This document shows, in pieces, positions 6,217-58,677 of a DNA stretch of 64,000 bases. Within the stretch, counting starts at the first letter, position 1. The number at the start of each line of letters is the position of its first letter. A program made the translations under genes and the position numbers. Below the pieces are notes generated by a model. The model saw nothing but the letters and a program-made list of their open reading frames with translations, made no database searches and had not been told where the DNA came from. Source of the DNA: Agromyces sp. CF514 (lineage in GTDB: Bacteria; Actinomycetota; Actinomycetes; Actinomycetales; Microbacteriaceae); contig NZ_FOZD01000001.1 of assembly GCF_900113185.1 (NCBI RefSeq), positions 558,001-622,000 on the forward strand, in the 5' to 3' direction.

Positions 6217-9200
6217 CTACTCCTCCGCGGTCGCCTCGTCGCCTGTCGACATCTCTGCTGGGTCTGCGGTATCCGGCGTCGACACCGGTGGAGGAGCCAC
6301 CGGCGGACGTTCACCGCTCGTCGTGCCCCATGGTCGCGCGTCAGGTTCCGCGGTGGGGAGCGACCCGGTCGCGGCCCTGTCGGAGGCGATGGGTGCCTCA
6401 GGGGGAACGAGGGTCGCCGGCGGCGTCGAGGTCGTGGCAGGGCGCGGATCTCCGATGGGTGTCCCGGTGTTCGGGGCCGCCGGTGCAGCCCGAGACACCT
6501 TGGGTGTCGCGGTGGATGTCTTGCTGACGGTCACGTACCCGGCTGCGGTCCCCGTCACCCGGACCGTGATCGCCTTGCCGGCCAGTCCGTCGGTCAGCAT
6601 GATCGTGGCAGCGGTCGCTCCGGCGATGGCGGTGCCGTCCGCGTACCACTGGTAGGTGAACGAGGTTCCATGGGTCCACCCTCCGGGTTTCGCGGTCAGG
6701 AGCGAGCCGGTCGCCGCTGTGCCGGTGATCGTGGGCGTGCCGGCCGTCGTGGCCTTCAGCCCGGGCGCCGAGGACCTGGCTGTGGTCGGGTATCCGCTGA
6801 GCGCGCCGGTGACGCGGACGGTGACCTGTCGGCCGGTCTGCGTACGCCTGAGCTTGAGCGTGGCGGCAGTCGCACCGGGGATCGCGGTGCCGGATGCGTA
6901 CCACTGGTACGCGAGCGTCGCGCCCGCGGTCCAGGTTCCTGGATCCGCCGTGAGCGTCGAGCCGACCGAGGCCGTGCCGGCGATCGTGGGGACCGGGGCG
7001 AGGAACACCTTCGATGTGGCAGCAGAGGTCTTGGTGATGGTCTCGTACCCGGCTGCGGTCCCCGTCACCCGGACCGTGATCGCCTTGCCGGCAACCTCGT
7101 CGGTCAGGCTGATCGTGGCAGCAGTCGCCCCCGCGATGGCGGTGCCGTCCGCGTCCCACTGATAGGTGAACGAGGTTCCGGAGGTCCACCCTCCGGGTTT
7201 CGCCGTCAGGATCGAGCCGGTCGCGGCGGTTCCCGAGATCGTGGGCGTCCCGACCGTCGGCGTTCCGGGGGCGACCATTGCGGTCGCGGCCGATTCGCTG
7301 GTGCCGGGTCCGTACCCCGATGCCGTGACCGACACCCTCACCGAGACGCGGGTGCCGAGTTGCGCCGCGCCGAGGGTGAACGCAGCCTGCGTGGCGCCGT
7401 CGATCGGGACACCGTCGGCGAGCCATGCATAGGCGAACGCGGCGCCGGGCGTGCTCGAGGCCGCGTGCGCCGTCATCGTCTTCCCGACCGCCGCGATCCC
7501 GCTGATGCTCGGCGCCGAGAGCTGCGCAGGCTCGATGAGCGCGACCGGTGTCGTCTCATCGGTCGTCCGGGTCGTCATCTCGTACCCGGGCTTCGAGGCC
7601 GTGACCTCGGCGCTGAGGCGCTTGCCGAGGTGCTCGTCCGTGAGCTCGAGGGTCGGCTCGGTCTCTCCCGCGAGGGGAGCGCCGTCGGCCAGCCATCGAT
7701 AGGCGAAGGCGACGGCAGCATCGGTGGAGGACGCCGTGACCGTGAGCGTGGAGCCGACGTTCGCACGGCCCGAGACGGTGGGAGCCGAGAGCGCCACGCC
7801 TCGGGTGAGGACTGCGTTCAAGCCCGACACGGACTGGTCCTCGAGCAACTCGATCGGGTCTGAATCGCCGGAGAGGGTCTGGTCGTTCCAGAACTCCTTG
7901 GTGTAGCCCGAGAGCGGCGGGGGGACGAACTCCAGGACGTAGGAACCCGCGAGCAGTCCGACCAGCGAATAATCGCCTCGCGCATCGGCATAGGCGTAGC
8001 GGTATTGCCGGTACCACCCGTCCGTGCCGAGTCGGTACGCGGTCACCAAAGTGTTCAGCAGGGGCTTGCCGTCGACCCCGGTCACTGTCCCCTTGAGTGC
8101 TGCCCCGGTCGCAAGCTTGGCATCGAGGCCGGATACGACACCGCCGATGGAGACCTCGACGGGTTTCGCGGAGGCGCGGTCGGTCGCGCCGTCCCACCAC
8201 TCCGCGCGGGCGCCCATCGTCTCGGGCGGCAGGAAGCGCAGGACGTAGCGGCCGGGATCCAGACCACGAACGGTGTACGTGCCGTCGGACGAGGTCCGGC
8301 CTTCGCCGACGATCGTCTGGGAGTTGTTCCCAGCGTCGAACGCGAAGACCCGCACATCCTCGAGCGGCGCTCCGTTCCGGTTGCTCACGATTCCGGAGAG
8401 CGTGCCTCCCAACTCGAGCTCGACATCCGCATTCACGTGGTCACGCTCGCCGAGTGGGATGGTGCGCGCCGTCGCCGAGCTGCGCTGACCGCTCCACCAC
8501 TGCGAGATGAACGGAAACGGCGGTTCGATGCGGATCGTGTAGGTACCCGGATCCAGCGGAGCGAAGGAGTACGCGCCGTTCGCATCGGACCGGAGGACCT
8601 TCAGGGCGTTCGACAAGTCGGCGGTCGAGAAGACCTCGACCCGGGCGCCTGCCACACCGGTTCCGTCAGGTGCCCGCACGACCCCTGAGATCGTCGACCG
8701 CAGGGCCGGGTCGAGATCGATGTTGCGCACGGCCTGGCCTTGCGCGACATCGATCGGCCTGGCTGCGGCCTCGTCCGGCGCGTCCTGCCACCACTCGCCG
8801 AAGTACCGATCGGATTCCGGCGTGAACGACACCTTGTAGGTGCCGCTCGGCAGCCCGATGAACTCGTACGCTCCGCTCGACGACGACCAGGCGTACGCCT
8901 TCACCCGGTACCCCGCAGGCGTCAATTCATAGGCCCGTACCGATTGATAGCTGAACGGCTTGCCGAGCTCGTCTTTCACCGAACCCGAGATCTTCGCGCC
9001 GATCGGGAGGCGGAGATCGATGCCCCGCACCGCTTCGCCCGTCGCGACGGTGAAGTGGTGCGCATCGGGTTCGTGGCCGACGCCACCCCACCATGCCGCG
9101 ACGTAGAGCGACGAATCGGGGACGATCGCCCGGATGGTGTACCTGCCCCCAAGCAGCTGCCCGAAACTGTACGTTCCGTTACGCGCGACCAAGGATCGCC

Positions 9201-9798: not shown

Positions 9799-9815
9799 GG
9801 TGGAAAGATTCCACC
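9799..9815. terminator. Small hairpin between two reverse-strand genes
   Basis: A perfect 7-bp inverted repeat, GGTGGAA-AGA-TTCCACC, lies 32 bases past the stop of the small acidic gene and 51 bases before the start of the large secreted protein. It may be a weak terminator for the first or an operator for the second. The sequence alone does not decide. Confidence 0.35.
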
Positions 9816-48440: not shown

Positions 48441-48459
48441 ATTTGGATGAAATCCAATT
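48441..48459. promoter_or_regulatory. Candidate TetR operator 1, on the promoter of the exported agmatine deiminase gene
   Basis: TTGGAT-GAA-ATCCAA (48443-48457) is a perfect inverted repeat, within ATTTGGATGAAATCCAATT. It overlaps the -10-like TATATT (48438-48443), a position where a bound repressor would block the polymerase. Matching sites lie at 49746-49780 and 55745-55761. Confidence 0.75.
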
Positions 48460-48475
48460 CATGGGGAGGTGGGGT

Positions 48476-49624
48476 GTGTCCGGAATGCGGATCTCCCGAC
48501 GCGGAGTGCTCACTGCGGCCGGCCTCGGCCTGCTGGGCATCGGCACGGCAGGTTGCGCGCCTGCGACGAACTCCGGCGGCCGGTCGTCGGCGACGACCGA
48601 TGGGCACGCCGCGATGGACCGCCGGCTCGGTGCCGAGTGGGAGCCGCACGAGCTCACCGTCATGTCGTGGCCGACCGAGGCCATCTGGGGCGAGGACCTG
48701 CAGGACGTGCGCGACGACCTCGCCTCGGTCGCGGCGGCCATCGCCGCCTACGAGCCGGTCGTGCTGCTCGCCTCGCCCGGCGACGAGGAGGATGCCGCGT
48801 ACGCGGTCGGCGACGACGTCGAGATCCTGACCGTTCCGGTCGACGACCTGTGGGCGCGGGACACCGTGCCGGTGTTCGTCGAGGGCCCGGCCGGGATCGA
48901 GGGCGTCGACCTCAACTTCAACGGCTGGGGCGGCAAGCAGTTCCACGAGCACGACGCGGGGGTCGGCGCGGCCGTGCTGGCCGAGTTCGGGATTCCGCGC
49001 GTCGTGGCCTCGCTCGTCGCCGAGGGCGGGTCATTGGAGACCGACGGCCAGGGCACCCTGCTCGTCACCGAGAGCTCGATCGTCAACGACAACCGCAACC
49101 CGGGGCTCTGGCGCGACGAGATCGAGCAGCGCCTCATGGACCTGCTCGGCATGCGCAAGGTGATCTGGTTCGACGGCGTCTACGACCAGGACATCACCGA
49201 CGCGCACATCGACTCGCTCGTGCGCTTCGTCGCGCCCGGCGTCGTGCTGCTCGACGTGCCGGGGCCGGGCGCACCCGACGACGTCTGGTCGCGCTCGAGC
49301 GAGCAGGCGCGGTCGGTGCTGGCCTCGGCGACGGATGCCGCGGGGCGGCCGATCGAGGTCGTCGAACTGCCCCAGCCCGACTTCGCGAAGATCCGGGGCG
49401 ACGGTGACGACTTTCTCGCGTCGTACGTCAACTTCTTCATCGCCAACGGCGCGGTATTCGTGCCGGAGTTCGGCGATCGCAGGGCCGACCGGCGCGCGCA
49501 GGACGTCCTGCAGGAGCAGTTCCCCGACCGCGACATCCTGCCTCTCGCGATCGACACGGTCGCCTCCGGTGGCGGCGGCATCCACTGCGCGACGCACGAC
49601 CTGCCGGCCCGACCCGGCGAGTGA
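48476..49624 (+). CDS. Agmatine deiminase-family enzyme, exported as a Tat lipoprotein
   Basis: A 382-residue guanidine-modifying enzyme that should hydrolyse agmatine (or peptidyl-arginine-like guanidino groups) to the ureido form plus ammonia. The N-terminus RISRRGVLTAAGLG with lipobox GTAGC (near residue 33) marks a twin-arginine lipoprotein, so it works outside the membrane. Catalytic parts are intact: DLWARDTVPVF, AEGGSLETDGQGTLL, NDNRNP, TDAHIDSLVRF and GGGGIHCATHDLP with the nucleophilic cysteine. I chose GTG 48476 because GGGGAGG lies six bases upstream; ATG 48485 is the alternative. An operator (48441-48459) covers its promoter. Agmatine deiminases are normally cytosolic, so this location is unusual. 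Confidence 0.88.
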   Translation: MSGMRISRRGVLTAAGLGLLGIGTAGCAPATNSGGRSSATTDGHAAMDRRLGAEWEPHELTVMSWPTEAIWGEDLQDVRDDLASVAAAIAAYEPVVLLASPGDEEDAAYAVGDDVEILTVPVDDLWARDTVPVFVEGPAGIEGVDLNFNGWGGKQFHEHDAGVGAAVLAEFGIPRVVASLVAEGGSLETDGQGTLLVTESSIVNDNRNPGLWRDEIEQRLMDLLGMRKVIWFDGVYDQDITDAHIDSLVRFVAPGVVLLDVPGPGAPDDVWSRSSEQARSVLASATDAAGRPIEVVELPQPDFAKIRGDGDDFLASYVNFFIANGAVFVPEFGDRRADRRAQDVLQEQFPDRDILPLAIDTVASGGGGIHCATHDLPARPGE

Positions 49625-49716
49625 CTCCGGAGCCCGAGGGCGTCCGGTCGTGATCGTGCGAGCGGGCGCGATTCAGGCGCGGTCGGGCGGGCCCGATCAT
49701 CCGTCCCGAGGAGCTG

Positions 49717-49782
49717 TTGACATCCGGGCGGCTGCCGCCGATGATATTTGGATATCATCCAAATTCGGATGACATCCAAATT
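49717..49782 (+). promoter_or_regulatory. Promoter and double TetR operator of the ABC importer operon
   Basis: A consensus -35 TTGACA (49717-49722) is followed, 19 bases later, by TGATAT (49742-49747). The perfect palindrome ATTTGGATATCATCCAAAT (49746-49764) overlaps the -10 end. A second copy, TTCGGAT-GAC-ATCCAAA (49764-49780), has its centre 17 bases downstream. The two sites together suggest cooperative binding of two repressor dimers. Confidence 0.82.
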
Positions 49783-49821
49783 CGACCGGTGACGTCGTCG
49801 TCGCCGGGGACAGGAGTCCTC

Positions 49822-51351
49822 ATGGCCCCCTCCATGACGAAGGCGCTCGCCGCGCTCGCCGGGGCGTTCGCGGTCGCCGCGCTCGCCGCATGCAGCCCGG
49901 CCGGAGTCAGCGCAGACCCGGCCGACGCGAACACGCTGCACGTCGCCCGCGCCGAGTCGTTCGACGGGTGGGACCCCGACAAGGCGGCGGCCTACTCGAC
50001 CTACCAGACGCTGCAGGGCGTGCTCGAACCACTGCTCCGGGTCGCCCCCGAAGGCGACGGAATCGAGGCGGGCCTCGCCGAGTCGTGGACCTACGACCCC
50101 GCCGCCCTGACCTGGACCTTCGTGCTCCGCGAGGGCACGAGCTTCAGCGACGGCACTCCGCTCACCTCGGCCGACGTGGCCTTCTCGGCCGGCGTCTGGG
50201 CCGAGGGCCCGAACTACGGCACCCTGTACGCGAACATCACGGGCGTCGCCACGCCCGACGAGCGCACCGCGGTGTTCTCGCTCGCCACGCCCGATTCGAC
50301 GCTGCCGGTGCTCATGACCTGGTCGTCGTCGGCGATCTTCCCGGTCGACTTCGGCGGACTCTCGAAGGACGAGTACTTCGCGAAGCCGACGGGCGCGGGC
50401 GCGTTCGTCGTCGCCGACTGGTCGCCCGGCGGACGCATCGTGCTCGAGAAGAACCCCCACTACTACCTCGAGGGGCGGCCGCACGTCGACCGCGTCGAGA
50501 TCGAGGTCATCGCCGACGCGACGGAGCGGGGCGCGCAGTTCCAGGCCGGTCAGATCGACATCGCCGAGTACGTCTCGGCGATCGACGCGAAGCAGTACGG
50601 CGAAGGTCTCGTCGCCCTGCCGGTCGGGCAGGTCGAACACCTGAGCTTCAACACGACCCGCGCTCCGCTCGACGATCCGCAGCTGCGACGCGCCGTCGCG
50701 CATGCGATCGACTACGACTCGATCGTTGAGGGCGCGTTCCGCGGCTACGGTTCGGCGCCCCGCGGAATCATCCCGCCGAACCTCGCCAACTGGGCGCCGC
50801 CCAGCGTCGAGCCCTACTCGCTCGACCTCGACGAGGCGCGCGACCTGCTCGCCGCCTCGGCCACCCCGAAGCCCGGACCGCTCGAGCTCATCTACGACGC
50901 CGGCAACCCGACCGACCACCTCGTCGCACAGGTCGTCGCGGCGAACCTCGCCGAGATCGACGTCGAGGTCACGCTCACCGCGCTCGAGACCGGCGCGTTC
51001 CTGAGCCGCGCCTACGGCCTCGACGCCGACCTGGTGCTGTGGTCGTACGGGGCCGTCTCGCCCGACGTGGTCGACCCCCTGGGCTGGATCCACGGCACCT
51101 CGTGGCTGTTCTCGGGCTTCGAGGGCGAGACCGTGCAGCAGCAGTTCTTCGCCTACACGGCGACCGAGGCCCCCGACGAGAAGCAGGCGATCGTCCAGGC
51201 CGTGCAGGACGACGCGATCGAGAACGCGCAGGCCATCAGCCTCGCCGAGTTCCAGGTGCTGCACGGGGTGGCCGACCGGGTCTCGGGCTTCGAGCCCGCG
51301 CCGTGGGGCATGTACGCGTGGGACACGATCGAGGTCGGCGACGGATCGTGA
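49822..51351 (+). CDS. Oligopeptide/dipeptide-type ABC transporter substrate-binding lipoprotein (family 5)
   Basis: A 509-residue extracellular binding protein with a lipoprotein signal (lipobox LAAC, about residue 22). The SBP family 5 pattern is clear: LHVARAESFDGWDPDKA, LEPLLRVAPEGDGIEAGLAESWTYD, FVLREGTSFSDGTPLTSADVAFS, a conserved GAGAFVVADWSPGGRIVLEKNP, and RRAVAHAIDYDSIV. ATG 49822 has AGGAG five bases upstream. Family 5 proteins bind peptides, nickel complexes, or sometimes opines and guanidino or amine compounds. The flanking agmatine deiminase genes favour such an amine or arginine-derived ligand, but this is inference. Confidence 0.9.
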   Translation: MAPSMTKALAALAGAFAVAALAACSPAGVSADPADANTLHVARAESFDGWDPDKAAAYSTYQTLQGVLEPLLRVAPEGDGIEAGLAESWTYDPAALTWTFVLREGTSFSDGTPLTSADVAFSAGVWAEGPNYGTLYANITGVATPDERTAVFSLATPDSTLPVLMTWSSSAIFPVDFGGLSKDEYFAKPTGAGAFVVADWSPGGRIVLEKNPHYYLEGRPHVDRVEIEVIADATERGAQFQAGQIDIAEYVSAIDAKQYGEGLVALPVGQVEHLSFNTTRAPLDDPQLRRAVAHAIDYDSIVEGAFRGYGSAPRGIIPPNLANWAPPSVEPYSLDLDEARDLLAASATPKPGPLELIYDAGNPTDHLVAQVVAANLAEIDVEVTLTALETGAFLSRAYGLDADLVLWSYGAVSPDVVDPLGWIHGTSWLFSGFEGETVQQQFFAYTATEAPDEKQAIVQAVQDDAIENAQAISLAEFQVLHGVADRVSGFEPAPWGMYAWDTIEVGDGS

Positions 51352-52292
51352 GCCGGTACCTCTTCATCGCGAAGCGGCTCGCGTTCGCGATCCCGCTGCT
51401 GTTCGCGATCGTGCTGCTCGTCTTCCTGATCCTCAAGGTGACACCGGGCGACCCGGCCAGGCTCATCGTCGGGCTTCGCGCCTCCGACGCCGAGCTGGCG
51501 GTCGTGCGGGCGCAGCTCGGGCTCGACGACCCCGCGATCGTGCAGTACTTCCGCTACGTCGGCGAGGTGCTCACCGGCAACCTCGGCTACTCGTTCAAGT
51601 CGAACGAGCCGGTCACGAGCCTCATCGCCGAGCGCCTGCCGGTCACCGTGTGGCTGCTCGGCGTCGGCACGCTGCTCTCGCTCGTCATCTCGGTGCCGCT
51701 CGCGATGTTCTCGGCGCGCCGACCCGACCGTGCGTTCGACCACGCGACCCGTGCGTTCGGGCTCGTCGCGCTCGCCATGCCGTCGTTCTGGGTGGGGATC
51801 ATCCTCATCCTCACGGTGGCGCTGCCGACGGGGTGGTTCCCGGTCGGCGGATTCGGCGACACCCCGGCCGAGCACCTGCGATCGATCGTGCTGCCCGCCC
51901 TCACCCTGGCCCTCTCGATCGCGCCGCTGCAGGTGCGCAGCCTCAGGGCGAGCATGATCACCGTGCTCGGCGCCGAGCACGTCACGACCGCTCGCTCGCT
52001 CGGGGTCGGACCCTCGCGGGTCATGTCGAAGTTCGTGCTGCGCAACGCCGCGCCGCCGACCGTGTCGATCCTCGCGCTGAACCTCGGCTACCTGCTGTTC
52101 GGCGCCGTCGTGGTCGAGACGACCTTCGCGCTGCCCGGCATCGGCCAGGGCATCGTGCTCGCCGCCCGGCAGCGCGACATCCCCTCGATCCAGGGCTACA
52201 CGCTGCTCTTCGCGGTGGCCGTGGTGCTCGTGTTCCTCATCGCCGACGTCATCACCTCGATCGCCGACCCTCGACTGGAGGTCGAGTCATGA
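51348..52292 (+). CDS. ABC transporter permease (DppB/OppB type)
   Basis: A 314-residue membrane subunit with six helices. The N-terminus is RYLFIAKRLAFAIPLLFAIVLLV, followed by the OppB-type VLTGNLGYSFKSNEPV and the cytoplasmic coupling loop MITVLGAEHVTTARSLGVG with the GVGPSRV pattern. GTG 51348 overlaps the binding-protein stop (GTGA), and its own stop overlaps the next permease gene. It pairs with the DppC-type permease and both ATPases encoded downstream. Confidence 0.93.
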   Translation: MSRYLFIAKRLAFAIPLLFAIVLLVFLILKVTPGDPARLIVGLRASDAELAVVRAQLGLDDPAIVQYFRYVGEVLTGNLGYSFKSNEPVTSLIAERLPVTVWLLGVGTLLSLVISVPLAMFSARRPDRAFDHATRAFGLVALAMPSFWVGIILILTVALPTGWFPVGGFGDTPAEHLRSIVLPALTLALSIAPLQVRSLRASMITVLGAEHVTTARSLGVGPSRVMSKFVLRNAAPPTVSILALNLGYLLFGAVVVETTFALPGIGQGIVLAARQRDIPSIQGYTLLFAVAVVLVFLIADVITSIADPRLEVES

Positions 52293-53167
52293 GCGCCGGA
52301 ACCGTCACGACCGTCACGGCCGCAGCCGTGGGCGTGCTGCCCGCCCGCGCCGTGCCGGGCGCCGAACGCGTGCGCCTGCCGCGCCGCGTCTGGGTCGGCA
52401 CCGGCATCGTCGCGATCTACGTGCTCGTGGCGGTGCTCGCACCGGTCATCGCCCCGTACGACCCGCTCGAGCAGGACATCGTGAACGCCCTCGCCTCGCC
52501 GAGCCCCGAGCACTGGCTCGGAACCGACGAGCTCGGCCGCGACGTCGTGTCCCGACTCGTGTACGCCTCGCGCATCGACCTGCTCGTCGGATTCCTCGGG
52601 GCCGCGCTGCCCGCAGTGCTCGGCACGGTGCTCGGCGCGATCGCCGGGTTCCGCGGCGGCTGGGTCGATGGCGTCATCATGCGCGTCTCCGACGTGGTGC
52701 AGGCGTTCCCCACGTACATCCTCATCATCGCGCTGGTGTTCGTGCTCGGGCCGGGGGTGCCGTCGATCCTCGTCGCATTCACGCTCATCGCGTGGGTCGC
52801 ATACGCGCGCCTCATCCGCACCGAGGTGCTGCGCACGCGCGGCCTCGAGTACGTGTCGGCGGCGCGTGCCTCTGGCCTCTCGCCGCGCCGGGTGCTCTGG
52901 CGGCACGTGTTCCCGAACTCGGTGGGGCAGACGCTCGTCTACCTGCCGAGCGACATCGTCGGCGCGACGCTCGGGCTCGCGGCGCTCTCGTTCCTCGGCC
53001 TCGGCATCCAGGCGCCGACGCCCGAGTGGGGCGCCATGATCGCCGCCGGGCAGCCGTACATCCGCGAGCAGTGGTGGCTGTCGACCGTGCCGGGCCTGGT
53101 CGTCGTCGGGTTCGGACTCGGGCTCAGCCTGATCGGAGAGGGGATCGAAGCATGGACCAGGAAGTGA
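52289..53167 (+). CDS. ABC transporter permease (DppC/OppC type)
   Basis: A 292-residue second membrane subunit. It has an N-terminal cytoplasmic tail, the conserved HWLGTDELGRDVVSRLVYASR, GFRGGWVDGVIMRVSDVVQAFP, and a coupling loop, LRTRGLEYVSAARASGLSP, followed by the FPNSVGQTLVYL segment. ATG 52289 overlaps the previous stop (ATGA), and the stop lies 16 bases inside the ATPase gene. Complete operon order and tight overlaps indicate one transcript from the promoter at 49717. Confidence 0.93.
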   Translation: MSAGTVTTVTAAAVGVLPARAVPGAERVRLPRRVWVGTGIVAIYVLVAVLAPVIAPYDPLEQDIVNALASPSPEHWLGTDELGRDVVSRLVYASRIDLLVGFLGAALPAVLGTVLGAIAGFRGGWVDGVIMRVSDVVQAFPTYILIIALVFVLGPGVPSILVAFTLIAWVAYARLIRTEVLRTRGLEYVSAARASGLSPRRVLWRHVFPNSVGQTLVYLPSDIVGATLGLAALSFLGLGIQAPTPEWGAMIAAGQPYIREQWWLSTVPGLVVVGFGLGLSLIGEGIEAWTRK

Positions 53168-54138
53168 GCCGCACGGTGCTCGCCGTCGACGGGCTGCGCG
53201 TCGACCTCGCGGTCGGCGGCGGCACGATGCACCCCGTCGACGGCGTCTCGTTCGAGGTCGCGGCGGGCGAATCGCTCGGCATCGTCGGCGAGTCGGGCTC
53301 GGGCAAGAGCCTCTCGCTGAAGGCCGTGCTCGGACTGCTGCCGCCGGGGGCGACCGCCGAGGGGGACCTTCGCTTCGCGTTCGACGGCGGCGTGGTCCGC
53401 GATGCCGAGCGGGTGCGCGGGTACGGGGTCGCGATGGTGTTCCAGGAACCGATGACGGCGCTCAATCCGACGATGCGGGTCGGCGACCTCATCGCCGAGG
53501 CGGTGCGGGCGAGGGGGAGGATGTCGCGCCGGGCGTCACGGGCACGCGTGCTCGAGCTCATGGCGGGCGTCGGCATCCCCGAACCCGAGCGGCGCGCGCG
53601 CATGTGGCCGCACGAGCTCTCGGGAGGGTTGCGGCAGCGCGTCATGATCGCCGCGGCCCTCGCCACCGAGCCCGAGCTGCTGCTCTGCGACGAGCCGACC
53701 ACCGCGCTCGACGTGACGGTCCAGGCGCAGATCCTCGACCTGCTGCGACGCCTCCGCGAGGAGCGCGGCCTCGCCATGGTGTTCGTCTCGCACGACCTGG
53801 CGGTCGTCGCCGAGGTGTGCGACCGGGTCGCCGTGATGTACGCGGGCCGGATCGTGGAGGTCGGCCCGGTCGACGAGGTGCTGCGTTCGCCGAGGCATCC
53901 GTACACAGCGGCCCTGCTCGCCTCTGCGCCGTCGTTCGCCGGCGGCGGCGAACGGCTTGCGACGATCCCCGGCTCGCCGCCCGACCCGCGCAGCTTTCCC
54001 GACGGGTGTCGTTTCGCCGCCCGGTGCGCCTTCGCGCGCGAGGACTGCCTGATCGCCGAGCACGAACTCGTCGGCGTCGACGAACGGCGGGCGACCGCCT
54101 GCATCCATCCCGAAGCCCTCATGGAGGTCGCCCGATGA
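53152..54138 (+). CDS. ABC transporter ATPase (DppD/OppD type)
   Basis: A 328-residue nucleotide-binding subunit. Walker A is GESGSGKS (about 46-53), Q-loop VFQEPMTALNP, signature ELSGGLRQRVMIA, Walker B LLLCDEPTTALD, and the H-loop is VFVSHDLA. The oligopeptide-family C-terminal extension carries the iron-sulphur-like cysteines (GCRFAARCAFAREDC and a later TACIHP). ATG 53152 overlaps the upstream gene end by 16 bases. It forms a pair with the next ATPase. Confidence 0.94.
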   Translation: MDQEVSRTVLAVDGLRVDLAVGGGTMHPVDGVSFEVAAGESLGIVGESGSGKSLSLKAVLGLLPPGATAEGDLRFAFDGGVVRDAERVRGYGVAMVFQEPMTALNPTMRVGDLIAEAVRARGRMSRRASRARVLELMAGVGIPEPERRARMWPHELSGGLRQRVMIAAALATEPELLLCDEPTTALDVTVQAQILDLLRRLREERGLAMVFVSHDLAVVAEVCDRVAVMYAGRIVEVGPVDEVLRSPRHPYTAALLASAPSFAGGGERLATIPGSPPDPRSFPDGCRFAARCAFAREDCLIAEHELVGVDERRATACIHPEALMEVAR

Positions 54139-54950
54139 GTGCGCATCTCGAAGCCCGCGGACTGCGCGTGAGCTACCGAACCGGTTCGGCGCTCGCCGCC
54201 AGGCTGCGGGGAAGGCCCGTGCCCGTGCTGCACGCGCTCGACGGGGTCGACCTCGTCGTGGAGCGCGGGTCGGCGGTCGGCATCGTCGGGGAGTCGGGGT
54301 GCGGCAAGTCCACCCTCGCTCGGGCGATCGTCGGGCTCGTCGAGCTCGACGGCGGCGCCTTGGCCCTCGACGGCGAGCCACTGCCGCTGAAACGCAGCCG
54401 AGCGCAGACCCGGCGCATCCAGATGGTGTTCCAGGACCCCAGCGCCTCGCTCAACCCGTCGATGACGATCGGGCAGACGCTCGGCGAGCTGCTGCGGGTG
54501 CACCGCATGGTGCCCGCCGCAGACGTGACGCGCCGTTCGGCCGAGCTGCTCGAACTCGTCGAGCTGCCGACCTCGCTCCTCGCCGCATACCCGCGTCGGC
54601 TCTCCGGCGGGCAGCGGCAGCGGGTGGGCATCGCCAGGGCACTCGCCCTCGAGCCCGAGATCCTCATCGCCGACGAGTCGGTCGCCGCGCTGGACGTCTC
54701 GGTGCAGGCGGCCATCCTCAACCTGCTCGAACGGCTGCGCGCCGAGCTCGGGCTCACCCTGCTCTTCATCTCGCACGACCTCGCCGTGGTTCGGCACCTC
54801 ACCGAGCGGGTCGTCGTGATGACGGCGGGTCGGATCGTGGAGGATCGGCCCACCGAGGAGCTCTTCCGCGACCCGCACCATCCCTACACCGCGGCCCTGC
54901 TCGCCGCTGCGCCGCACCTGGGGGCGCTGGCTAGGATGGGGACGCGATGA
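54135..54950 (+). CDS. ABC transporter ATPase (DppF/OppF type)
   Basis: A 271-residue second ATPase. Walker A is GESGCGKST, Q-loop VFQDPSASLNP, signature RLSGGQRQRVGIARAL, Walker B ILIADESVAALD (Glu kept, Pro of DEPT replaced by Ser), H-loop FISHDLAVV. Unlike its partner, it ends soon after AAPHLG without the cysteine cluster, so it is somewhat shorter than usual for OppF. ATG 54135 overlaps the previous stop. A TAGGAT box at 54932-54937 near the end may start a separate tetR transcript. Confidence 0.93.
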   Translation: MSAHLEARGLRVSYRTGSALAARLRGRPVPVLHALDGVDLVVERGSAVGIVGESGCGKSTLARAIVGLVELDGGALALDGEPLPLKRSRAQTRRIQMVFQDPSASLNPSMTIGQTLGELLRVHRMVPAADVTRRSAELLELVELPTSLLAAYPRRLSGGQRQRVGIARALALEPEILIADESVAALDVSVQAAILNLLERLRAELGLTLLFISHDLAVVRHLTERVVVMTAGRIVEDRPTEELFRDPHHPYTAALLAAAPHLGALARMGTR

Positions 54951-54968
54951 GCGAGAGGGCGGCGTGAC

Positions 54969-55577
54969 GTGGTGACCGACCGGCGTGCCAAGGGCAAGGC
55001 GCGCGAAGAGCTCGTCGTCGAGGCGGCCGCGAAGGCCATCGCCGAGCTGGGGCTCGCGAACGTGCGTGTCACCGACATCGCCGAGCGGGCGGGCATGCGC
55101 CCCGGGCACGTCACCTACTACTTCCCGTCGAAGACCGAGCTGCTCATGCTCGCGATCCGCCAGAGCGAGGAATCGCTGGTCGAGCAGGCCGAGGCCGAGC
55201 TCGGCGGCATCGACGATCCGTGGGCCCGGCTCGAGCGGTTGATCGAGCTGTCGGCGTCGAACGGCCGCGGCGATCCCGGCTGGATCCTCTGGTTCCAGGT
55301 GTGGTCGGATGCCGCGACCGACGACGTCGTCTCGGAGGTGCACAACGAGCTCGACGAGGGCTGGCGGCAGATCCTGCGAGACGTGCTCGAATACGGACGC
55401 GAGCGCGGCGCCTTCGCCTTCGACGACCTCGGCGAGGTCGCGCAGATCCTCTCGGCCACGATCGACGGGCTGTCGATCCAGTTGACGGTCGGCGCCGCGG
55501 GCGTCGATCACGCGCGGCTGCTCGCCCTCTGCGTGCGGAGCGCGGCGGCGTTCCTGGGGGAGCCCGCGCACCGCTGA
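54969..55577 (+). CDS. TetR/AcrR-family transcriptional regulator
   Basis: A 202-residue repressor. The helix-turn-helix is VVEAAAKAIAELGLANVRVTDIAERAGMRPGHVTYYFPSKTELLMLA (given as one domain, about residues 15-60), followed by a BetI-like ligand domain with EGWRQILRDVLEYGRERGAF and a C-terminal dimer helix pair. GTG 54969 or the adjacent GTG 54972 starts it; it follows the ATPase stop by 18 bases and may also have its own promoter (TAGGAT at 54932). It is the only regulator in this cluster, so it is the obvious binder of the TTTGGAT-N3-ATCCAAA sites. The inducer may be agmatine or a related amine, which is inference. Confidence 0.9.
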   Translation: MVTDRRAKGKAREELVVEAAAKAIAELGLANVRVTDIAERAGMRPGHVTYYFPSKTELLMLAIRQSEESLVEQAEAELGGIDDPWARLERLIELSASNGRGDPGWILWFQVWSDAATDDVVSEVHNELDEGWRQILRDVLEYGRERGAFAFDDLGEVAQILSATIDGLSIQLTVGAAGVDHARLLALCVRSAAAFLGEPAHR

Positions 55578-55744
55578 CCGGCGCTGTTCGGTGCTCGCCG
55601 AGCGCAAGGCGCCGAGCGAGGCGCCGCTCGCCTCGCGAACCTCGGCCGCGCACGCGGTGCGCCATGCATTCGCGCGCGCTCCCACGCGCACTCGGGCGCG
55701 GTGTTCGGCACCCGTGATCCGCCCTGAGCACCACTTGCCACTTT

Positions 55745-55761
55745 CTTGGTTTTCATCCAAA
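55745..55761. promoter_or_regulatory. Candidate TetR operator 3, before the cytosolic agmatine deiminase gene
   Basis: CTTGGTT-TTC-ATCCAAA matches the palindrome found at 48441 and 49746, with an intact right half and one or two mismatches in the left half. It lies 52 bases before the GTG at 55814, just after a -35-like TTGCCA (55735-55740). Confidence 0.7.
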
Positions 55762-55813
55762 ATAGTCGAACACAACCCCATCCGCACCGACGCGTGATCA
55801 CTGGAGGTCCGCC

Positions 55814-56881
55814 GTGACTCAGACGACTCCCACCCCGACCCGAACCGGGCCGACCCCGGCCGAGGCCGGCTACTCGATGCCGGCCGAATGGGCGCCCCAC
55901 TCGGCCTGCGTCATGATCTGGCCGACCCGCCGCGAGCTCTGGCGCGAGCGATTCGAGGACGCGAAGCGCGACTACGCCGCCGTGGCCCGCGCGATCGCCG
56001 CGTTCGAGCCCGTGGTGATGCTCTGCAACCCCGGGCTCTCCGCCGAGGTGCGCAGCCTCTGCGGCGGCGGCGTCGAGGCCCTCGAGGTGCCGGTCGACGA
56101 CTCGTGGGCGCGCGACAGCGGACCCGCGTTCGTCACGAACGCGGCGGGCGAGCTCGCCGCGGTCAAGTTCGGCTTCAACGCGTGGGGCAATCGCTGGCAT
56201 CCGCACGACCAGGACGCCCTCGTGCCCGACCGGCTCGCCGCGCACTTGGGTGTGCCGCTCTTCGAGGCGCCCTTCGTGCTCGAGGGCGGCGCGTTCTTCG
56301 TCGACGGCGAGGGAACGCTCATCACGACCGAGCAGTGCCTGCTGAACCCCAACCGCAACCCGCATCTCTCGAAGGCCGAGATCGAGCAGGGCCTGCGCGA
56401 CTACCTCGGCGTCTCGACCGTGATCTGGCTGCCCTTCGGCCACAGCCTCGACGTCGGCCCGGCCGGCACCGACGGACACGTCGACGGCGTCGCCCAGTAC
56501 CTCGCCCCGGGAAGGGTGCTGCTCGAGGTCCCGTCGGATCCGCGCTCGGGCGAGTACGACCGCGCCCGCGCGAACCTCGCGCGCCTGCAGGCATCCCACG
56601 ACGCTGCCGGCCGTCCGCTCGAGATCGAGCACCTCGACCCCGATCTCGCCGCCGAGGTCTCCTACGCGAACCACTACCTCGCGAACGGCGCGGTCATCGT
56701 GCCGGTCGGCGGGGACGGCCCCGAGGGCGACGAGCGCGACGCGCCCGTGCTCGAGTTCCTCGCGCGGATGCACCCCGACCGCGAGATCGTCGGCGTGCCG
56801 GGCGAGACGATCGCCTTCGGCGGCGGCGGCCCCCACTGCATCACCCAGCAGGTGCCTGCCGCAGGTCCGGCCAGGGGATAG
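55814..56881 (+). CDS. aguA: Agmatine deiminase, cytosolic
   Basis: A 355-residue enzyme that converts agmatine to N-carbamoylputrescine and ammonia. The sequence is a full-length match to the AguA pattern: EWAPHSACVMIWPTRRELW, VPVDDSWARDSGPAF, FNAWGNRWHPHDQD, LEGGAFFVDGEGTLI, TTEQCLLNPNRNPH, TDGHVDGVAQYL and FGGGGPHCITQQVP with the catalytic cysteine. There is no signal peptide. GTG 55814 has GGAGG eight bases upstream. It differs from the exported copy (48476-49624) in lacking the Tat leader and in having the usual TEQC segment. No N-carbamoylputrescine amidase gene was seen in the window. Confidence 0.94.
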   Translation: MTQTTPTPTRTGPTPAEAGYSMPAEWAPHSACVMIWPTRRELWRERFEDAKRDYAAVARAIAAFEPVVMLCNPGLSAEVRSLCGGGVEALEVPVDDSWARDSGPAFVTNAAGELAAVKFGFNAWGNRWHPHDQDALVPDRLAAHLGVPLFEAPFVLEGGAFFVDGEGTLITTEQCLLNPNRNPHLSKAEIEQGLRDYLGVSTVIWLPFGHSLDVGPAGTDGHVDGVAQYLAPGRVLLEVPSDPRSGEYDRARANLARLQASHDAAGRPLEIEHLDPDLAAEVSYANHYLANGAVIVPVGGDGPEGDERDAPVLEFLARMHPDREIVGVPGETIAFGGGGPHCITQQVPAAGPARG

Positions 56882-57009
56882 CGGCGAGATCGTGGGCGGG
56901 CCGTGCGCGGCCCGCCCACGGCATCCGCTCGACCTCCGCCATTCGGTTGACGGGGGTGGGCGGCCCCCAGCCCTATCGTGGGCAGGGTGGGGGCACGGAG
57001 GGGATGGCG

Positions 57010-58677
57010 ATGACCGCAGGCGAGCACGAACAGCAGGGGCGCACGGGCACCCGACGGTGGATCGGGCTCTGGGTGCTCGCGTCGGCACTGTCGATGATCG
57101 TGCTCGACGGCACGATCGTGGGCGTCGCGCTGCCGACGCTCATCACCGACCTCGACCTCGACTTCAGCGAGGCGCAGTGGGTCAACGGCATCTACTCGGT
57201 CGTGTTCGCCGCGCTGCTGCTGACCGCCGGGCGCCTCGGCGACCGCCTCGGACGGCGGAGCGCGATGTTCGCGGGCATCGCGCTGTTCCTGCTGGGCAGC
57301 CTGCTCGCGTCGCTCGCCACGGGTGGCGACTCGCTCATCTTCGCGCGGTTCGTGCAGGGCATCGGCGGCGCGTTCATCCTCCCGGCGACCCTGTCGACCG
57401 TCAACGCGACCTTCCGCGGGCGGGATCGCGCCGTCGCGTTCGGCGTGTGGGGCGCGGTCATCTCGGGCGTCGCCGCGCTCGGCCCGCTGCTCGGCGGCTG
57501 GCTCACCGAGTCGTTCGGGTGGCAGTGGATCTTCCTCGTGAACCTGCCCTTCGGCATCGCGATCGTGATCGCCGCGCTCTTCACGGTCGACGACACCCGA
57601 GCCCACGTCACGAGCCCGGGGCTCGACGTCGACGGCCTGCTGCTCTCGGCGATCGGCTTCGGCGCCCTCGTGTTCGGCCTGATCGAGGGCGGGTCGCTCG
57701 GCTGGTGGGCGCCAGAGCAGCCGTTCGTGCTGTTCGGCTGGACCTGGCCCGCCGACTGGCCCCTCTCGCCCGTGCCGATCGCGCTCGCCGTCGGCGTCGT
57801 GTCGCTCGTGCTCTTCGTGCTGTGGGAGCGCCACCGGGCGCGCAACGGCCGCTCGGCGATCCTCGACGTTCGGCTCTTCTCGGTGCCGACCTTCACCTGG
57901 GGCAACCTCGTCGCGCTCTGCGTCGCTGTCGGCGAGTTCGGCATCCTCTTCGTGCTGCCCCTCTTCATCGTCAACGCGCTCGGACTGTCGACGCTCACCG
58001 CCGGGCTGGTGCTCGCCGCGATGGGACTCGGCGCGTTCGCGTCGGGCGCCTCGGCCAGGCACCTCTCGGAGCGGTTCGGAGCGCCGAACGTCGTGCTGAT
58101 GGGCCTCGGCATCGAGTTCGTCGGCGCCGTCGCGGCCGCGCTGCTGCTCGGACCCGACCTGTCGGGGTGGTGGCTCGCCGCCGTGCTCGCCCTCTACGGG
58201 CTCGGGCTCGGGCTCGCCTCGGCGCAGCTCACCGGCACGGTGCTCGCCGACATCCCGCCAGAGCAGTCGGGTCAGGGCTCCGCGACCCAGAGCACGGTGC
58301 GCCAGGTCGGCTCCGCGCTGGGCACCGCGGTCATCGGCGCGGTGCTCGCCGCAGGGCTCGCATTCGCGTTGCCCGCGCAGCTCGACGGGCAGTCCGGGCT
58401 GCCGGCCTCGGCCGAGCAGCAGGTCATCGACGCGACCGAGCTGTCGGCGGGCGCGAACATCCCCGCGCTGCGCGAACAGGGCACCGACGGACAGCTGGGT
58501 GAGGCCGGGCCGGCGGTCGCCGACGCGCTCTCGGCCGGCATGGCGGATGCGTCGCGCTGGGCGCTGCTCGCGGCATCCGTGTTCCTGCTGTTCGGCGCGG
58601 GCTTCGCGCTGCAGCTTCGCGCCCGGTCTCGACGTCGTCCGACCGCCGCCGAGTCGTCGGCGGTCAGCGACCGCTGA
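57010..58677 (+). CDS. MFS multidrug-type exporter, DHA2 (14-helix) family
   Basis: A 555-residue drug:proton antiporter-like protein. It has the DHA2 hallmarks: LDGTIVGVALPTLITDL in helix 1, the loop motif GRLGDRLGRRSAM, QGIGGAFILPATLS, a motif C region GVWGAVISGVAALGPLLGGWL in helix 5, and about 14 helices in total. I prefer ATG 57010, since GGAGGGG lies eight bases upstream; ATG 57004 is immediately adjacent to it. It follows the agmatine deiminase gene after 128 bases on the same strand, but I see no TetR palindrome before it. It may export an amine, drug or other amphiphile; there is no direct evidence. The 3' end overlaps the next gene by 14 bases. Confidence 0.9.
   Translation: MTAGEHEQQGRTGTRRWIGLWVLASALSMIVLDGTIVGVALPTLITDLDLDFSEAQWVNGIYSVVFAALLLTAGRLGDRLGRRSAMFAGIALFLLGSLLASLATGGDSLIFARFVQGIGGAFILPATLSTVNATFRGRDRAVAFGVWGAVISGVAALGPLLGGWLTESFGWQWIFLVNLPFGIAIVIAALFTVDDTRAHVTSPGLDVDGLLLSAIGFGALVFGLIEGGSLGWWAPEQPFVLFGWTWPADWPLSPVPIALAVGVVSLVLFVLWERHRARNGRSAILDVRLFSVPTFTWGNLVALCVAVGEFGILFVLPLFIVNALGLSTLTAGLVLAAMGLGAFASGASARHLSERFGAPNVVLMGLGIEFVGAVAAALLLGPDLSGWWLAAVLALYGLGLGLASAQLTGTVLADIPPEQSGQGSATQSTVRQVGSALGTAVIGAVLAAGLAFALPAQLDGQSGLPASAEQQVIDATELSAGANIPALREQGTDGQLGEAGPAVADALSAGMADASRWALLAASVFLLFGAGFALQLRARSRRRPTAAESSAVSDR

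Follow-up and report, generated by a model that had tools for sequence, protein, structure and literature searches.

The closest described counterparts of the locus analysed here come from Pseudomonas aeruginosa. As given in the available excerpts of the respective papers, the agu2ABCA' operon of strain PA14 contains two agmatine deiminase genes (PMC4784309), of which the Agu2A' product (PA14_48450) is listed as an experimentally identified substrate of the twin-arginine translocation (Tat) pathway (PMC6085387), and in the aguBA/AguR system an agmatine deiminase is controlled by a TetR-family repressor (PMC4287709). The window studied here, a stretch of 64,000 nucleotides from Agromyces sp. 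CF514 (NZ_FOZD01000001.1, positions 558,001 to 622,000 of the forward strand), likewise carries two deiminase genes, AD1 and AD2, the first with a Tat-type leader and the second without, and shares with aguBA/AguR the TetR-family control of such an enzyme, although in our locus the binding is predicted. In contrast to agu2ABCA', AD1 has a lipobox, and the set comprises a complete family-5 ABC importer and is marked by a palindrome together with a TetR gene; the aguBA operon, as excerpted, holds AguB, with no mention of export, whereas here the unit lacks AguB but includes the leader-bearing AD1 and the importer. Since agu2ABCA' has the exported and the second deiminase, but the importer, the palindrome and the actinobacterial range do not appear in its excerpts, the locus represents an actinobacterial version, equipped with an importer of its own, of the two-deiminase theme of P. 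aeruginosa. No actinobacterial system of this layout was found among the matches listed in the open-licence literature searched, partly seen in excerpt. An earlier note on this DNA knew of no described system with this layout; the pairing of two deiminases with one Tat-exported is known, and the importer, the palindrome-marked set and the actinobacterial range were not met with in that literature.

The locus is probably a TetR-controlled regulon through which the cell uses a small guanidino-amine from outside, with agmatine or something close to it as the likeliest compound. Its features are given below, with start codons picked by us from several candidates; all the genes noted earlier are present and lie on the plus strand, while the previously given start at 48441 falls at the operator upstream of AD1 and not at its start codon.

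48443..48457, no strand: predicted operator 1, TTGGATGAAATCCAA, starting 42 bp upstream of the AD1 start codon
48485..49624, plus strand: AD1, agmatine-deiminase-family enzyme, 379 aa, with Tat-type leader and lipobox
49748..49762, no strand: predicted operator 2a, TTGGATATCATCCAA, upstream of the importer operon
49765..49779, no strand: predicted operator 2b, TCGGATGACATCCAA, one mismatch, upstream of the importer operon
49834..51351, plus strand: family-5 solute-binding protein (SBP), 505 aa, lipobox-like N-terminus
51348..52292, plus strand: ABC permease 1 (P1), OppB/DppB type, 4 bp overlap with the SBP gene
52289..53167, plus strand: ABC permease 2 (P2), OppC/DppC type, 4 bp overlap with P1
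53152..54138, plus strand: ABC ATPase 1 (A1), OppD/DppD type, 16 bp overlap with P2
54135..54950, plus strand: ABC ATPase 2 (A2), OppF/DppF type, 4 bp overlap with A1
54972..55577, plus strand: TetR regulator carrying a BetI-type domain (TetR_C_6) at its C-terminus, 21 bp downstream of A2
55746..55760, no strand: predicted operator 3, TTGGTTTTCATCCAA, one mismatch, upstream of AD2
55814..56881, plus strand: AD2, agmatine-deiminase-family enzyme, 355 aa, leaderless, 236 bp after the TetR gene

The unity of the set is suggested by the inverted repeat TTGGATNNNATCCAA, which occurs once before AD1, twice before the SBP gene and once before AD2, so that all the presumably controlled units are preceded by it, as in a TetR palindrome regulon. 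Allowing one mismatch, it is found at four places in the whole 4.3 Mb genome, all of them in this locus, and the reversed pattern used as a control has no sites in the genome. Five loci have the same gene order, namely the window and those of Agromyces cavernae (L070), Microbacterium sp. MYb54 (L071) and GCS4 (L072), and probably Microterricola gilva (L014, genome G063), and in each of them all three promoters have at least one site with no more than one mismatch (15/15). Judged by these sites, AD1, the importer and AD2 look like one regulon. Among 100 sampled genomes of the family, exact sites are present in five; in this genome (G000) and G063 they lie at this locus, and the other three genomes (G046, G047 and G052) have one site each. 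No deiminase was found in the 20 kb around these single sites, which therefore look like chance or other uses; the region of the site in G047 (L016) holds a distant Opp-type importer. The Microbacterium sp. MYb54 locus has an additional AD1-like gene (35%), on the minus strand from about position 8595 and oriented divergently to AD1, and here the palindrome is found twice more, at 9804 and 9915.

The gene order is also conserved. In G063 the order AD1-SBP-P1-P2-A1-A2-TetR-AD2 is kept at 75-88% identity, and the same order recurs at 70-89% identity in A. cavernae as well as in both Microbacterium loci, so the order is indeed kept in related genomes, four in all, with the reservation that the genes of the relatives were called by a simple script that may miss small ones. 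An amidase gene follows AD2 in three of these, G063 and both Microbacterium loci. Because the palindrome is confined to the locus at one mismatch or fewer and the gene order is conserved, the set is more than a chance proximity. A gene for a DHA2-type efflux transporter (57004-58677) lies 122 bp downstream of AD2; it was left out of the unit because it is not directly 3' of AD2 in any of the four relatives with the same order. The spread of the genes is patchy. At E 1e-60 or better, AD1 is present in 4 of 398 genomes of the family, this one included, and in none of the 9 other genomes listed for the same genus; an SBP orthologue (E 1e-90) is found in 2 of the 398, namely G063 and this genome, which are also the two with an AD1 at 75% identity or more. 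At E 1e-70, and counting this genome each time, AD1 occurs in 2/396 genomes of the order and 17/394 of the class, and the nearest named proteins come from Agromyces strains (77-87% identity). The patchy distribution would fit transfer of the whole unit.

Both deiminases match the Pfam family PF04371 (2.4e-104 for AD1 and 8.8e-102 for AD2). The N-terminus of AD1, MRISRRGVLTAAGLGLLGIGTAGC, read by eye in the translation, has the twin-arginine motif SRRGVL, followed by a hydrophobic segment and a lipobox with Cys24 as its last residue, and AD2 is leaderless, in agreement with the earlier note. AD1 is thus a predicted Tat lipoprotein, and its export by Tat and subsequent lipidation would follow from these motifs. 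In an alignment with EfAgDI, the Asp, Glu, His, Asp and Cys corresponding to its D96, E157, H218, D220 and C357, which we take to be the catalytic residues, are found in AD1 and AD2 alike, and the retention of the Cys, His and acidic residues noted before is borne out. Fold and catalytic residues are shared with known agmatine deiminases of plants and bacteria (AtAIH, 3h7c; EfAgDI, 2jer); AD1 adds a Tat-type leader, and its clade differs at several positions that lie close to catalytic residues in sequence.

A search of genome contigs with the single AD1 protein gave no matches, and an alignment-based search gave 182 AD1 relatives, the best 80 named loci of which were kept and form the basis of the neighbour and leader counts with n=80. 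The tree drew on the window together with 100 loci, 101 sequences in all, of which some overlap and several are the same DNA (e.g. L050 and L127); out of 180 deiminase frames, five shorter than 300 aa and three with short domains were dropped, 172 domains were extracted, and after removal of X-containing and identical rows 171 distinct rows were left, including three solved agmatine deiminases. The AD1 (n=131) and AD2 (n=35) clades are sisters with a support of 0.998, and the third deiminase of this genome, AD3, falls outside them, as do the solved enzymes. By a crude test, 111 members of the AD1 clade have a Tat-like leader and none of the 35 in the AD2 clade do, one call in the latter having been rejected as false, as it was in-frame upstream sequence and not a leader. 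Of the 80 named AD1 loci, 73 match a strict twin-arginine and lipobox pattern; four of the remaining seven show both motifs by eye, and L083, L100 and L113 do not. The catalytic residues are kept in 128 to 130 of 130 AD1-type rows and in 35 or 36 of 36 AD2-type rows.

The importer is a five-gene operon with one SBP_bac_5, two BPD_transp_1 and two ABC_tran domains, the same make-up as in the Dpp/Opp/Nik-type family-5 importers. An Opp-type importer, whose co-occurrence with such a deiminase in other actinobacteria was raised in the earlier note, is present at 26 of the 80 AD1 loci (23 of the 58 with full flanks), and an AD2-type gene accompanies it in 25/80 (22/58). At least two deiminase genes are present in 43/80 (32/58), one of two searched-for types of TetR in 68/80 (53/58), a urease-like gene in 25/80 (18/58) and an amidase in 2/80 (2/58). 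For comparison, 18 SBP_bac_5 rows are spread over the 8.6 Mb of one genome taken to be Streptomyces (G902), so that one would be expected in about 4% of 21 kb stretches, a figure that is no statistical test since the loci are interrelated. Pfam domains near the deiminases of the relatives further include UreA/B- and UreC-like proteins, copper amine oxidase, CN-hydrolase, and a TOBE-type ATPase with an SBP_bac_8 protein. One relative (L062:3262-14814) has a copper amine oxidase, an amino acid permease and a PotA/PotD-like pair close to deiminases of both types, and in another actinobacterium (L067:7670-10479) a compact AD2-TetR-AD1 set has no importer called nearby.

The Streptomyces-type relatives can carry a wider cluster with a different palindrome and a urease-like pair, and in these clusters the AD2-type gene precedes the importer genes. 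The pair, a UreC-like protein and a fused gamma/beta protein, is located near the deiminases at L050:10789-13475 and L062:683-3147. The two UreC-like proteins inspected keep the HxH and Lys motifs and lack CHH, the flap motif of urease.

The proposed guanidino-amine regulon could operate as follows. AD1, anchored outside the cell as a lipoprotein, would deiminate the compound to its ureido form and ammonia, the product being N-carbamoylputrescine if the compound is agmatine. The importer would take up either the compound or the AD1 product, and any compound that enters unchanged would be deiminated by AD2 in the cytosol. The ureido group may then be split by a partner hydrolase, either an amidase or, in many Streptomyces-type clusters, the urease-like pair, and TetR would repress all three units via TTGGATNNNATCCAA until released by a cytosolic effector. 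The suggestion in the earlier note that guanidino compounds are handled both outside and inside the cell is supported in part: the genes, leader motifs, palindromes, gene order, clades and catalytic residues are observed, while the export, the substrate, the direction of flow, the TetR binding and the hydrolase step are predictions.

The last enzymatic step may be served by different enzymes. Amidase, urease-like and CN-hydrolase proteins recur as neighbours and are possible ureido-splitting hydrolases; the positions of the amidase and urease-like genes suggest that their products may split the ureido product. In the agu2ABCA' operon, agu2B presumably encodes an N-carbamoylputrescine amidohydrolase, whereas the unit here has no AguB or other CN-hydrolase (none was found by Pfam among the genes of the window locus), and in three relatives an amidase follows AD2. 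This amidase is a relative of one beside AD3 (L008:10397-12118), and both belong to NCBIfam PRK06565 (1043.8 bits against a cut-off of 575 for the AD3-side protein). The set around AD3 (L008:6996-12118) also has an apparent NCS1 permease and, on the opposite strand, a TetR-like gene, the latter two identified by eye. The 20 kb AD3 locus has two palindrome sites only, each with three mismatches, which is no more than chance. The solved structure nearest to the AD3-side amidase is that of Tse8, which we take to be an antibacterial effector of P. aeruginosa; here the Tse8-like amidase sits among metabolic genes.

Several observations weigh against the proposed regulon. First, the importer is missing at 54/80 and the second deiminase at 37/80 AD1 loci in the stretch examined, and neither is therefore obligatory. 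These absences, with TetR present in 68 loci, would suit a role in defence or signalling, in which AD1 would destroy, outside the cell, a guanidino compound that is toxic or acts as a signal, AD2 would handle leakage and the importer would serve for salvage. We consider this improbable, as a dedicated importer sharing the palindrome would carry the toxin inward, and catabolism is indicated by the copper amine oxidase and the PotA/PotD-like pair that one relative has close to its deiminases.

Next, neither AD1 (245.4 bits) nor AD2 (316.2 bits) reaches the 381.8-bit cut-off of the AguA equivalog TIGR03380, so the name agmatine deiminase given to them earlier is appropriate for the family but not as AguA equivalogs. 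Moreover, the AD1-type proteins differ from known AguAs by E/D214 to I, H162 to E and mostly QQ360-361 to HD, and because these positions are near the catalytic residues in sequence, the AD1-type substrate may differ from that of AguA. Family-5 binding proteins also suit ligands larger than agmatine, and the partner amidase belongs to an amide-hydrolysing family. The same regulon might then serve for a conjugate of agmatine, larger than the free amine, or for some other natural product with a guanidino group, with the amidase cutting the amide inside; the available excerpt on a Frankia agmatine deiminase, linked to plant amides made from agmatine (PMC9956245), is in line with this. Such a substrate nevertheless appears unlikely, since there is no direct evidence for a conjugate and the solved structures nearest to AD1 are agmatine deiminases. 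The latter rank above all chains of the Porphyromonas peptidylarginine deiminase (PPAD) by both sequence and fold, and AD1 is thus closer to agmatine deiminases than to PPAD. A scheme in which AD1 converts peptidyl-arginine to citrulline outside the cell and the peptides then enter through the Opp-type importer is very improbable, even though the Pfam family is named after the Porphyromonas enzyme and the importer is of the peptide/nickel type.

Further, no AguB is found above the cut-off in this genome, the best CN-hydrolase scoring 229.6 of 410.25 bits. The second palindrome speaks for such a regulon, though with caveats. A 16-base version gave no sites; the 18-base gapped form then used, TGACTGAANNTTCAGTCA, has 175 sites with up to two mismatches in 71 of 77 other named loci, mostly of Streptomyces and relatives, against 26 for the reversed pattern. 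It precedes 63/96 TetR, 19/25 AD2-type and 8/25 UreAB hits and 84/119 AD1-type hits, the last count being partly built in because the pattern was derived upstream of AD1 in the same loci, and stands directly before none of the 25 SBP hits. Likewise, a comparison of the SBP pocket with DppA failed its own control. In a first alignment the column of DppA R383 was Asp in 21/21 SBP homologues and that of D436 was Asp in 20/21, which seemed to favour a cationic ligand, given the roles of R383 and D436 in DppA; however, only 1 of 20 other family-5 binding proteins (from G000 and G063) had Arg at the former, and the window SBP shifted by one column, and a cationic-ligand reading of the pocket was dropped. 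Finally, TetR is proposed as the palindrome binder from the position of its gene.

With a substrate other than free agmatine, the locus would represent an undescribed actinobacterial guanidino system, combining exported and cytosolic deiminases of sister clades, a dedicated importer and interchangeable ureido-hydrolases (amidase or urease-like pair), with two unrelated TetR operators holding the set together in different lineages; this is possible and is put forward tentatively. The regulon for a small guanidino-amine such as agmatine remains the preferred reading, and the palindromes make it directly testable. If true, it would assign a function to a large clade of proteins with Tat leaders whose annotation goes no further than "agmatine deiminase family", would suggest that the urease-like pair of the Streptomyces clusters acts on ureido compounds different from urea, and would extend the breakdown of guanidino compounds in soil bacteria by a step outside the cytoplasm.

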